64,000 nt of DNA from Halobacterium litoreum. GTDB lineage: Archaea; Halobacteriota; Halobacteria; Halobacteriales; Halobacteriaceae. This document shows positions 21,065-34,944 of this stretch, one piece after another. The notes below the pieces were generated by a model that was given only the letters and a program-made list of their open reading frames with translations, did not search any database and was not told the DNA's origin. Each line of letters starts with the position of its first letter. Within the stretch, counting starts at the first letter, position 1. The stretch covers positions 310,001 through 374,000 of the forward strand of contig NZ_CP089466.1 in the NCBI RefSeq assembly GCF_021233415.1, in the 5' to 3' direction. The translations under genes were made by a program, and so were the position numbers.

Positions 21065-21400
21065 TCACTCGCTGACCAGCCACAGCCGGTCGATGACCCC
21101 CTCCCGAACCCGGTAGACGCCGACCGCTTCCCGTTCCTCCCCGCCCTGTTCGAGTCGCTCGTGGTCCACGACGTACTCCCCGAGTGTCATCCGGGACAGA
21201 ATCTCCACCGTCGGCTCCACGGACTCGAACAGCCCGCCGTACAGCTCTCGAATCTCCGCCTCGCCGACCGCCATCGGTTCCTCCCCGTCGATTTCCGCGA
21301 CGACGGCGTCCTCGGCGAACTGCGCCACGAACGCCGCCACGTCGCCGTCGTTGTACGCCTCGACCTGTCTGTCCACCACACTCTCCGGGTCGCTCGCCAT
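21065..21400 (-). CDS. NTF2-like / SnoaL-family protein
   Basis: A 111-residue single-domain protein of the cone-shaped NTF2-like fold: VVDRQVEAYNDGDVAAFVAQFAEDAVV, then REL YGGLFES, ILSRMTLGEYVVDHERLEQ and AVGVYRVREGVIDRLWLV. Members are ketosteroid isomerases, polyketide cyclases or ligand-binding scaffolds; the pocket residues do not allow a choice. It converges on the prenyltransferase gene with one base between stops. Confidence 0.82.
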   Translation of the reverse strand: MASDPESVVDRQVEAYNDGDVAAFVAQFAEDAVVAEIDGEEPMAVGEAEIRELYGGLFESVEPTVEILSRMTLGEYVVDHERLEQGGEEREAVGVYRVREGVIDRLWLVSE

Positions 21401-21460
21401 ACTCGTCGTGGTCCCGCGATGGCTTAAGAAAGTACGGACGGCGTCGCTCGGTTCGACTCA

Positions 21461-21586
21461 CGCAGCGGAGCATCCGCGACCCGAGGGGCGCGAGGCGGCG
21501 AAGCCGCCTCGGAATGCGCGAACGGGGAGCGGAGTGACCCGTGAGCGGTCCGAAGGACCCGGAAGGGTCGCGGATGCTCCGCTGCG
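21461..21586. repeat. 126-nt structured region: 22-bp perfect arms with nested hairpins
   Basis: The outer arms 21461-21482 and 21565-21586 are perfect inverted repeats of 22 bases. Inside are CGAGGCGG-CGAAG-CCGCCTCG (21491-21511), CGGG..CCCG (about 21523-21542) and GGTCC-GAA-GGACC (21547-21559). Together they would fold into a branched, cloverleaf-like structure. No open frame uses the region convincingly. It could be a structured RNA or a folded mobile element. Confidence 0.7.
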
Positions 21587-21656
21587 AGTGCCGTCAGCGC
21601 GAGCAGCGGCCGACGACCGACTAACGCGAGCGAAGCGAGCGGCTGGAGGGAGGAGT

Positions 21657-21724
21657 GCTTTTTCCGCAAGTTTTTGCCGAGTGAGGCGAGGCAGCGCCGC
21701 GCCTCACGCAGCGCAAAAAGTGCG
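21657..21724 (-). repeat. Gene-end hairpin element, copy 1
   Basis: On the minus strand the order is CTTTTTGCGCTGC, a GC hairpin (GTGAGGCG...CGCCTCAC), then TCGGCAAAAACTTGCGG and AAAAAGC. The flanks match copies 2 and 3 at 34104 and 34452, while the hairpin bases differ. It lies 3' of tRNA-Leu and its palindromic fragment, read in the same direction. It resembles a terminator but is longer and more conserved than needed. Confidence 0.7.
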
Positions 21725-21725
21725 A

Positions 21726-21812
21726 TGCGAGGGGTGGGATTCGAACCGCCCGCAGACGGTCGCTCACTGCGTTCGCGCTGCGTCTGCTGTGCTTCGAATC
21801 CACCCTCTTCTC
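21726..21812 (-). other. Palindromic partial copy of the tRNA-Leu 3' end
   Basis: Bases 21726-21747 repeat exactly the 22 bases at 21841-21862, that is the acceptor and T-arm end of the neighbouring tRNA-Leu. Further along, 21793-21807 carries a slightly shorter inverted copy, and between them CGCAGACG/CGTCTGC pair, so the whole folds as one hairpin. It cannot fold as a tRNA because there is no D-arm or anticodon arm. It may be the footprint of an integration at the tRNA or a duplication. Confidence 0.6.
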
Positions 21813-21840
21813 GTCTACTCGCGTTCGCTCGCAGAACGAG

Positions 21841-21923
21841 TGCGAGGGGTGGGATTCGAACCCACGAACCCCTACGGGAGCGGGTCTTAAGCCCGCCGCC
21901 TTTGGCCGCTCGGCCACCCTCGC
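21841..21923 (-). tRNA. tRNA-Leu (anticodon UAA)
   Basis: The reverse strand folds as a class II tRNA: acceptor GCGAGGG/CCCTCGC with discriminator A, D-arm beginning GTGGCCGAGC, anticodon stem GCGGG/CCCGC with loop CTTAAGA (anticodon TAA), a long variable arm and a T-arm GTGGG-TTCGAAT-CCCAC. The CCA end is not encoded, usual for haloarchaea. It reads UUA, a rare codon at this GC content. Confidence 0.95.
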
Positions 21924-32884: not shown

Positions 32885-34099
32885 GTGGCTGACGAAGACG
32901 ACGAGGACTGGTTCGAGCAGGCGTTCGAGGACGAGACGCCCGACGACGAACCGACAGACGGCTCCCCGCCCGACGAGTCGGACGACGCCGAGAGCGACGC
33001 GGACGACCCGTCGAGCGACGAATCGACGGGCGAACCGACAGACGACTCGCGGAGCGGCGACGCCGAAAGCGATTCGTCGCCAAGCTTCGACGCCGAAAGC
33101 GATTCGCCACCCGAACCGGCGACCGGCGACGACGCCCCGCCCGAACCGGCGACCGGCGACGACGAGAACGACGCCGACGCCTTCGCGGACGCCTTCGGCG
33201 GCGGCGACCCCGCGCCAAACGACGGCGACGACGGCGACCTGTTCGAGGACGACTTCGCCGACGCGTTCGCCGGCGGCAGCGGTGGCGCGCCCGCACCCGG
33301 CGGTGGCGGAGGCGGCGGCGAGAACTTCGGCTTCGACCTCGACGGCGACACCGGCGGCGGCGCGCCCGGCGGCTTCGAGGAAGAGGAGGAGTACGACTCC
33401 GACATCCCCCGCATCGACGTCGGCATCGACGGCCTCGACGAGATGATTCAGGGCGGCCTCCCCGAGCGCTCCCTGATGGTCGCCATCGGCGAAGCCGGGA
33501 CCGGGAAGACCACGTTCGGCCTCCAGTTCCTCCACGAAGCCATCGAGAACGGCGAACGCGCCGTCTTCATCACGCTCGAAGAGTCACGCGAGCGCGTCGT
33601 CCAGAGCGCCACCGACAAAGGCTGGGAGTTCGAGCGCCACGCCGAAGAAGGCAACCTCGCCGTCATCGACATCGACCCCATCGAGATGGCGAACTCCCTC
33701 ACCAGCATCCGGAACGAACTCCCCCGGCTCGTCGAGGAGTTCGGCGCCAGTAGGCTCGTCCTCGACTCCGTCTCCCTCCTGGAGATGATGTACGACGACC
33801 AGTCCAAGCGCCGCACCGAAATCTACGACTTCACCAAATCGCTGAAGGACGCCGGCGTCACCACCATGCTCACCAGCGAAGCGAGCGAGGACTCCGCGTT
33901 CGCCTCTCGCTTCGGCATCATCGAGTACCTCACCGACGCCGTCGTCGTCCTCCGGTACATCTGCCCCGAGGACTTCCGGGAGACCCGACTCGCCGTCGAA
34001 ATCCAGAAGATACGCGACGCCAACCACTCCCGCGAAACCAAACCCTACGAAATCACCCACCAGGGAATCAGCGTCTACCGGCAAGCGAATATCTTCTGA
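32885..34099 (+). CDS. KaiC-family (RecA-like) ATPase with long acidic N-terminus
   Basis: A 404-residue protein, GTG start. Residues 1-175 are acidic low-complexity sequence; two internal direct DNA repeats encode PPEPATGDD twice and DAESDS twice, and short hydrophobic motifs recur ([28 protein letters not shown]). From 176 on it is one KaiC/RAD55-type domain: Walker [10 protein letters not shown] (about 202-210), Walker [15 protein letters not shown], then [28 protein letters not shown]. Such single-domain KaiC proteins are common in haloarchaea and mostly unassigned (signal transduction, GvpD-like repression, motility). The hairpin element starts five bases after the stop. Confidence 0.83.
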
Positions 34100-34103
34100 C
34101 GGA

Positions 34104-34160
34104 CCTTTTGCGCTGCGGGGCGCCTGCGGCGCCCCTCGGCAAAACCTCCACCAAAAGCCT
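34104..34160 (+). repeat. Gene-end hairpin element, copy 2
   Basis: On the plus strand: CCTTTTGCGCTGC, hairpin GGGGCGCC-TGC-GGCGCCCC, TCGGCAAAA, then CCTCCACCAAAAGCC. Same order as copies 1 and 3. It begins five bases after the KaiC-family stop in the sense direction. Confidence 0.75.
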
Positions 34161-34451: not shown

Positions 34452-34515
34452 GCTTTTTCCGCAAGTTTTTGCCGAGGGGGTCGCCGCAGGCGACCCCCGC
34501 AGCGCAAAAAGTGCG
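34452..34515 (-). repeat. Gene-end hairpin element, copy 3
   Basis: On the minus strand: CGCACTTTTTGCGCTGC, hairpin GGGGGTCGCC-TGC-GGCGACCCCC, TCGGCAAAAACTTGCGGAAAAAGCC. It begins four bases after the UspA stop in the sense direction. The flanks match copy 1 nearly base for base; the hairpin differs in sequence but keeps its pairing. Confidence 0.78.
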
Positions 34516-34518
34516 TGC

Positions 34519-34944
34519 TTAGCGGACAATCGTTACTGGCATCGGGGAGCGTCGGACGACGTTCTCGGCGACGCTGCCGAGGAGGATACGGGAGACGCCG
34601 GAGCGGCCGTGGCTCCCCATCACGATGTGGTCGATGCCGTGTTCTTCGGCGTAGTCGACGATGGTTCGGCTGGGGCGCCCGACTTCCGTGGCGGTGTCGA
34701 GGGGGTGGTCGTACTCGTCGGCGACTTCCTGTGCTTCCTCGAACAGTTCGTCGGCGCCCTTCTTGGCTTGCTCGTACCACTCCTCGGAGTAGCCCGGCAC
34801 GGTCGCTTGGGCGGTGTAGCCGGCTTCGATGGGGTCGATGACGTTGATGACGGTGATGTCCGCGTCGACGAACTCTTCGAGCGCGTATTCGAGCGCGTCG
34901 TCTGCCTGCTTCGAGCCGTCGATGGGAACGAGAATCTTCGACAT
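34519..34944 (-). CDS. Universal stress protein (UspA family)
   Basis: A 141-residue single-domain UspA protein: KILVPIDGSKQADDALEYAL at the start, VINVIDP, then the nucleotide-binding end IVMGSHGRSGVSRILLGSVAENVVRRSPMPVTIV, which holds the G-x2-G-x9-G-S type ATP motif. ATP-binding UspA proteins act in stress survival, often through unknown partners. The ATG at 34942-34944 is clear. It runs toward the KaiC-family gene, and a hairpin element follows its stop. Confidence 0.93.
   Translation of the reverse strand: MSKILVPIDGSKQADDALEYALEEFVDADITVINVIDPIEAGYTAQATVPGYSEEWYEQAKKGADELFEEAQEVADEYDHPLDTATEVGRPSRTIVDYAEEHGIDHIVMGSHGRSGVSRILLGSVAENVVRRSPMPVTIVR

Follow-up and report, generated by a model that had tools for sequence, protein, structure and literature searches.

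The region under study lies in a 64,000-nucleotide stretch of Halobacterium litoreum DNA (the window), between a minus-strand gene (21065–21400) and the minus-strand gene for tRNA-Leu (taa; 21840–21923), the nearest called genes. Genes were called by means of a home-made codon score, for which the window and the H. litoreum loci served as the training set; none covered the region, in agreement with the preliminary description. Two perfect 22-nt inverted arms occupy 21461–21482 (CGCAGCGGAGCATCCGCGACCC) and 21565–21586 (GGGTCGCGGATGCTCCGCTGCG), as had been described; in a scan for inverted repeats (arms of at least 12 nt, spacer of at most 130 nt) they were the longest of eight perfect inverted repeats in the 64-kb window, the runner-up having 14 nt, and the longest inverted repeat in 30 third-order Markov windows measured 18 nt. 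The three nested stems reported inside the arms were located as 9 bp around GAA (21491–21511), 4 bp CGGG/CCCG (21523–21541) and 5 bp GGTCC-GAA-GGACC (21547–21559). The DNA fold of the 126-nt segment beat 200 of 200 dinucleotide shuffles (z = −5.55). The cloverleaf stands as a fold but not as a free-standing unit, since the 126 nt are the left part of a repeated element of about 270 nt.

By-eye comparison with 21 other copies in the same genome placed the whole element, of sequence type 1, at 21454–21724 on the plus strand, and its RNA fold was likewise better than shuffles (z = −6.46). Plus here denotes the strand that reads from the hairpins towards the double T-tract. Judged by this comparison, the focal arms are hairpin 1 of the element, enlarged by a 61-nt two-hairpin insert. 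The 5' arm of hairpin 1 (21461–21482, plus strand) and its 3' arm (21565–21586, plus strand; outer part ATGCTCCGCTGC) were delimited by the inverted-repeat scan, while its original apex, GGTCC-GAA-GGACC (21547–21559, plus strand), was recognized from the fold and from related copies. Hairpins 2 and 3 (21587–21657, plus strand; placed by copy comparison and by the fold of the insert-free copy L046) precede the core CTTTTTCCGCAAGTTTTTGC (21658–21677, plus strand), which carries two U5 tracts on the plus transcript. There follow a right hairpin (21678–21712, plus strand), whose sequence differs among copies according to the alignment and a stem-length test, and the right arm GCAAAAAGTGCG (21713–21724, minus strand), which on the minus transcript provides one U5 tract (CGCACUUUUUGC) right behind the end of the abutting gene. 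Past the 126 nt, the sequence accordingly reads T5CCGCAAGT5GC, another hairpin and then GCAAAAAGTGCG.

The H. litoreum copies share the layout AGCATCCGCGA with hairpin 1, hairpin 2, hairpin 3, CTTTTTCCSCAAGTTTTTGC, right hairpin and GCAAAAAGTGSG. Generalized, the plus strand runs through three GC-rich hairpins, U4–5 N7–8 U4–5 GC, a hairpin, GCAAAA(A) and a pairing arm, the latter pairing with the bases that precede the second U-tract, and within a few nucleotides of this arm a gene of the opposite strand has its 3' end. The fold of L046 (z = −8.84) begins with three clean hairpins and leaves the first U-tract unpaired; a long fourth hairpin follows, at the foot of which the second U-tract is paired with the A-tract. 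The element measures about 170–270 nt and combines several hairpins with pairing arms and with tracts on either strand.

Some traits of the focal copy are its own. Two relatives whose hairpin 1 is identical or similar (L137 and L144) have CCGCGACCC, a short apex, GGGTCGCGG and TTCAC, and lack the cloverleaf; compared with them, the focal hairpin 1 contains 61 extra nucleotides (21486–21546, plus strand, boundaries ±2 nt by eye), which form two hairpins. L012 carries a similar two-hairpin module in its hairpin 2 and L145 one in its hairpin 1; L016 and L018–L021 have shortened versions. CGCGRTTCAC or GCGGTTCAC (up to 1 mismatch) was found at the 3' arm of hairpin 1 in 70 of 84 copies, and ATGCTCCGCTGC after this arm in one only, the focal one, where it replaces the usual TTCAC. 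The bases left of hairpin 1 have ATGCTCCGCTGC as their reverse complement, so that a templated copy of one arm is a simple reading: a module entered hairpin 1, and the outer stem was lengthened to 22 bp, probably by such copying. Since L137 and L144 lack the cloverleaf and ATGCTCCGCTGC occurs in a single copy out of 84, the long arms are special to the focal copy, and the finding is the family. More two-hairpin modules (TTCTCGTGAGCGAAGCGAACGAGAGC..; CCGTGCGAACGGGCGC..GCCCGTGAGC) were seen in L031/L055, L148, L131, L133, L138 and L146, in the loops of differing hairpins, as if the hairpins of the element drew hairpin inserts. L131, at the tRNA-Leu locus of genome G017, holds about 250 bp inside hairpin 1 compared with L133 of G010, and this insert looks like a separate small mobile element.

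The element follows the 3' end of tRNA-Leu in 10 of the 13 genomes of the genus, H. litoreum among them, being absent from this locus in G007, G012 and G015, and in relatives without an insert it lies directly behind the tRNA. Next to the focal element, the 3' end of tRNA-Leu is present in a partial copy (21726–21747, minus strand; 22 of 22 nt identical to 21841–21862) that begins 68 nt from the start of the core; the tRNA gene lies 115 bp further. The 115-bp insert (21726–21839) consists of this exact 22-nt copy, a hairpin and, at 21793–21808, the T-arm region copied in inverted orientation. Similar inserts at tRNA-Leu were seen in G018, G013, G009 and, in part, G015 and G007, each matching, by eye, the tRNA of its own genome.

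A similarity search of the H. litoreum genome with 21440–21730 gave 36 matches, and the core pattern (up to 3 mismatches) was found 22 times, with no match in the controls. A wider pattern that ignores arm sequence (TTTT N8 TTTTRC, gap, GYAAAA) gave at least 25 copies in this genome and at least 223 summed over 13 Halobacterium genomes, lower bounds because a 20-base pattern was used for type-1 copies and the wider one for the other types; controls gave 0 in all 13 genomes, and the H. salinarum genome (G012) had no match to the wider pattern. Contrary to the prospect, raised in the preliminary description, of finding no second copy or homologous fold in relatives, the element is therefore repeated both within and between genomes. 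Within the family, 18 of 26 genomes had type-1 cores (up to 2 mismatches), and within the order 64 of 243 did (controls: 10 genomes with one match each); most genomes of several other families had zero type-1 matches. A copy in Haloterrigena salina (Natrialbaceae, L099) shows the identical architecture with a different arm sequence. The window itself contains a second type-1 copy (34453–34515 from core to right arm, plus strand), which adjoins the stop codon of a minus-strand gene (34519–34944), and a third copy of a different sequence type (34101–34157, minus strand), which adjoins the stop codon of a plus-strand gene (32885–34099). These two stand head to head, one per convergent gene, an arrangement also seen at L015.

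The position of the element relative to genes was analyzed for 84 cores from six genomes, 22 from H. litoreum and 62 from part of the places listed for G010, G008, G014, G013 and G001. In 78 of the 83 copies having a right arm, the stop codon of an oncoming gene lay −1 to 6 nt from this arm (25-nt limit), and in H. litoreum it lay 62–71 nt right of the core start in 21 of 22 type-1 copies. The five exceptions among the 83 were the focal copy, one of two at L198, L199, which adjoins RNase P RNA, and L204 and L213, where a stop triplet is at the expected place and no gene was called from it. Among the other sequence types (51 copies or rows), 32 had the oncoming stop at −3 to 15 nt; the other 19 comprised five tRNA-Leu loci, two ncRNA genes (SRP RNA at L258, RNase P RNA at L234), six duplicated gene ends in opposite orientation (L227, L238, L244, L249 and, twice, L247), four flanks cut by a sequence edge (L173, L193, L201, L256) and two true exceptions with a right arm and no oncoming gene (L224, L242). 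Over all types, the ncRNA neighbors were SRP RNA in one genome and RNase P RNA in two, with coordinates 9, 2 and 5 apart. The distance to the left gene was variable (109 to 359 nt in H. litoreum), and this gene was on the plus strand, i.e. convergent, in 44 and on the minus strand in 27 of the 71 copies with a called left gene. The abutting genes were unrelated, ten of ten scanned falling into different Pfam families (release factor aRF1, topoisomerase VI A, the arginase family and others). A functional theme among them was looked for in these ten Pfam scans, and none emerged. T4 within 20 nt of the stop was found for only 5 of the 73 called genes of the window; most window genes do without the element. 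Of the 13 genomes, 9 have the element at the aRF1 gene (L034), G018 has a remnant there, and G009, G011 and G012 lack it; 26 of 47 groups of abutting genes were common to at least two of the six genomes, which suggests that many sites are old. The remnant beside aRF1 in G018 (L141) has only GCATCCGCGAGCGCTGG and AAAAAGTGC left, with the small stem next to the tract retained.

For the analysis of conservation, 84 sequences (75 type-1 and 9 of other types; long right hairpins, L198 and L199 excluded) were aligned with MAFFT. In these copies of several sequence types no T-tract column varied, each A-tract column was either invariant or conserved to at least 90%, and by eye all 84 had A4 or longer in the right arm, which corresponds to a U4+ tract just downstream of the gene; T-tracts are thus kept on both strands of the element. 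Because the alignment of the variable hairpin was poor, structure was judged by arm pairing and stem length. The middle of the element is free in sequence yet keeps its stem: 48 distinct arms occurred, the median longest stem was 8 bp, compared with a shuffled mean of 3.8, and the stem had only 3 bp in 4 of the 84 copies. Core position 9 (the base before the left CAAG) was complementary to the last right-arm base in 80 of 83 copies (51 G/C, 29 C/G; the other 3 G/G). In the other sequence types three arm pairs held in 20, 16 and 19 of 20 distinct arm combinations, with 10, 2 and 3 of 2000 shuffles doing as well, and the remaining two of the five tested arm positions, both inner, had no pairing signal (1046 and 102 of 2000 shuffles). 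An R/Y arm pair was found in 117 of 118 copies of all types. A G.G mismatch beside the tract was kept in 15 of the 20 combinations, and its retention in most arms disfavors simple palindrome correction; covariation in inverted repeats can also arise via templated mutation instead of selection. At gathering score, Rfam models matched only tRNAs in the window, and a permissive scan of six loci returned the tRNA and one sub-threshold match on its opposite strand. A known Rfam family was dropped as an explanation, no model having matched the element in these scans.

Another motif that recurs, GGTCACGCG..GGG.TGGTCCCG...TAYTTGAA, comes with a small hairpin and was noticed at L014, L018, L019, L025 and L032 of H. 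litoreum and at L262–L267. With up to 3 mismatches it gave 76 matches summed in 12 of 13 genomes, with 0 in the controls and none in the H. salinarum genome. Five of the six H. litoreum matches have a core of matching orientation about 150–190 nt to their right, and the motif may therefore be a left extension of some copies.

We consider it likely, from the sequence features described above, that the dispersed gene-end element, of which the focal feature is hairpin 1, works as a bidirectional transcription terminator. This reading draws on the anatomy of the element, its position and its covariation, and on the fact that several genomes have it at some gene ends that are orthologous. The earlier proposal of a structured RNA would come near the mark if understood as a terminator or a 3'-end structure. 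RNA polymerase would be expected to stop at the element, with recognition of its U-tracts by aCPSF1/FttA. The abutting gene's own transcript would meet a U4–5 tract (CSCACUUUUUGC) straight past the gene end and terminate there. An opposing transcript, coming from a convergent gene or running antisense from the next promoter, would pass through three hairpins and then the double U-tract, where it would be released or cut before reaching the abutting gene; the plus-strand order of hairpins followed by UUUUU-CCSCAAG-UUUUU-GC would suit the ending of transcripts bound for the 3' end of the gene. In excerpts of work on Haloferax volcanii, 95% of transcripts ended in vivo at an inserted T5C tract, and hairpins were upstream of a subset of termination sites (PMC7237163). 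For Methanococcus maripaludis, excerpted text states that aCPSF1 bound an RNA when its two U-tracts were five or four long and not when they were three, and that archaeal termination needs no hairpin (PMC8716108). The two sides of the element may differ in strength, because the double tract meets the minimum of two U4 tracts and the single tract falls below it. Termination alone leaves the three hairpins unexplained, since the abutting strand has one U-tract before the hairpin and hairpins are dispensable. Also counting against the terminator reading are the many genes here that do without the element, the H. salinarum genome with no copy, the two copies facing no oncoming gene (L224, L242), the six rows at duplicated gene ends of the other orientation, the two arm positions lacking a pairing signal, and templated mutation as a possible source of the covariation.

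Mobility was weighed against this terminator reading. The element could be, or once have been, a mobile non-autonomous unit directed at gene 3' ends, with terminator activity as a means of avoiding harm or as a by-product; we regard this as unlikely, even though dispersed copies similar in sequence sit at unrelated genes. Direct repeats of 49–79 nt, corresponding to the 3' end of the left gene, were found around 5 of 116 copies (repeat scores 40–70), at genes that we take from their C-terminal sequences to encode citrate synthase (G008, G010), thiolase (G009, G010) and Elp3 (G010). At Elp3, the element of G010 and G016 lies between two copies of the gene end, and each of the 11 other genomes has one such end and no element; the citrate synthase end is occupied in G008, G010 and G016 and empty in 10 of 13 genomes, and at both genes 68–79 nt of the gene end lie on both sides of the element. 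G017 resembles G010 at the tRNA-Leu and aRF1 loci, yet is empty at Elp3 and citrate synthase, and L247 carries the thiolase gene end plus element unit twice, in tandem. Insertion with a long duplication, or loss via recombination between repeats, would both fit the repeat-flanked sites, and judging from these arrangements, insertion or duplication of the element does occur at some gene ends. Against mobility as the general explanation, the remaining 111 of 116 copies lack a flanking direct repeat above control (scores of at most 13, control at most 16, in a test blind to duplications of only a few bp), the long and variable duplications are ill-suited to a DDE or Y1 transposase, no transposase was tied to the element in a search that covered the Y1 family, and the sharing of abutting-gene groups between genomes suggests old residence. 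Target duplications at ordinary copies were dropped from consideration, none exceeding control. We advance only tentatively the idea of a mobile terminator cassette of haloarchaea, which would install itself at gene 3' ends, copying 49–79 bp so that the gene stays intact, would act as a two-sided transcription barrier and would offer its hairpins as landing sites for smaller hairpin modules, as in the focal copy.

More specific origins fare worse. An IS200/IS605-type remnant or MITE would account for the hairpins and the multiple copies, and the preliminary description had proposed both a folded IS-like remnant and the core of a MITE. The search for a transposase that it had suggested was made for the Y1 family (IS200/IS605, PF01797) and gave 0 matches in the H. 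litoreum genome; Y1 matches occurred in 7 of 13 genomes and did not track copy number, five further genomes of the 13 that lack Y1 carry 5–29 copies, and the H. salinarum genome shows the opposite, with two Y1 matches and zero copies. Neither proposal was supported, the MITE in its strict sense because copies are fixed a few nucleotides past the gene end and only a few of them have target duplications above control in the test described above; we hold such a remnant or MITE to be highly improbable. An IS200/IS605 or RAYT origin was abandoned on the lack of a Y1 match in this genome. Improbable, too, is a REP-like stabilizer or mRNA 3'-end processing structure in place of a terminator: stable GC-rich hairpins do follow stop codons, but copies also adjoin tRNA, SRP RNA and RNase P RNA genes, and conservation is strongest in the T-tracts of the two strands and not in the hairpins. 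Like REP/REPIN sequences as presented in excerpts from PMC3116915, the element is a short extragenic hairpin repeat in many copies; REP doublets are there described as randomly distributed in extragenic space, whereas the element is fixed within a few nucleotides of gene 3' ends. REP/REPIN sequences also go with RAYT, whereas the H. litoreum genome has no Y1 match.

Bacterial bidirectional intrinsic terminators between convergent genes combine hairpins and T-tracts usable from either side. The element likewise has hairpins and T-tracts from both sides, but differs from them in being asymmetric (three hairpins and two tracts against one tract), in forming a dispersed family and in its archaeal host. 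In Neisseria, DNA uptake sequence hairpins are a genome-wide repeat that doubles as terminators behind genes; the element is also a genome-wide repeat behind genes, although it has no short invariant uptake word and its hairpin sequences vary freely. With archaeal U-tract terminators (aCPSF1/FttA; the T5C of H. volcanii) it shares U4–5 tracts at the gene end and, on one strand, a pair of U-tracts that are each four or more long. These terminators, in the excerpted accounts, are plain U-rich stretches without a requirement for hairpins, whereas the element is repeated and multi-hairpin, with tracts on both strands and pairing arms. Full-text searches of open PMC papers turned up none that, by title or start of abstract, describes such an element. 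Its absence from the H. salinarum genome, together with the zero type-1 matches in most genomes of several other families, could explain why it may have been overlooked. If it does terminate transcription, some archaea would use large, structured, repeated and two-sided terminators a few bases behind the stop codon. The natural variants at one gene end, where the element may be present, absent, truncated or duplicated, would then make it possible to ask what hairpins add to U-tract termination, and the same set would also suit asking how termination signals spread.
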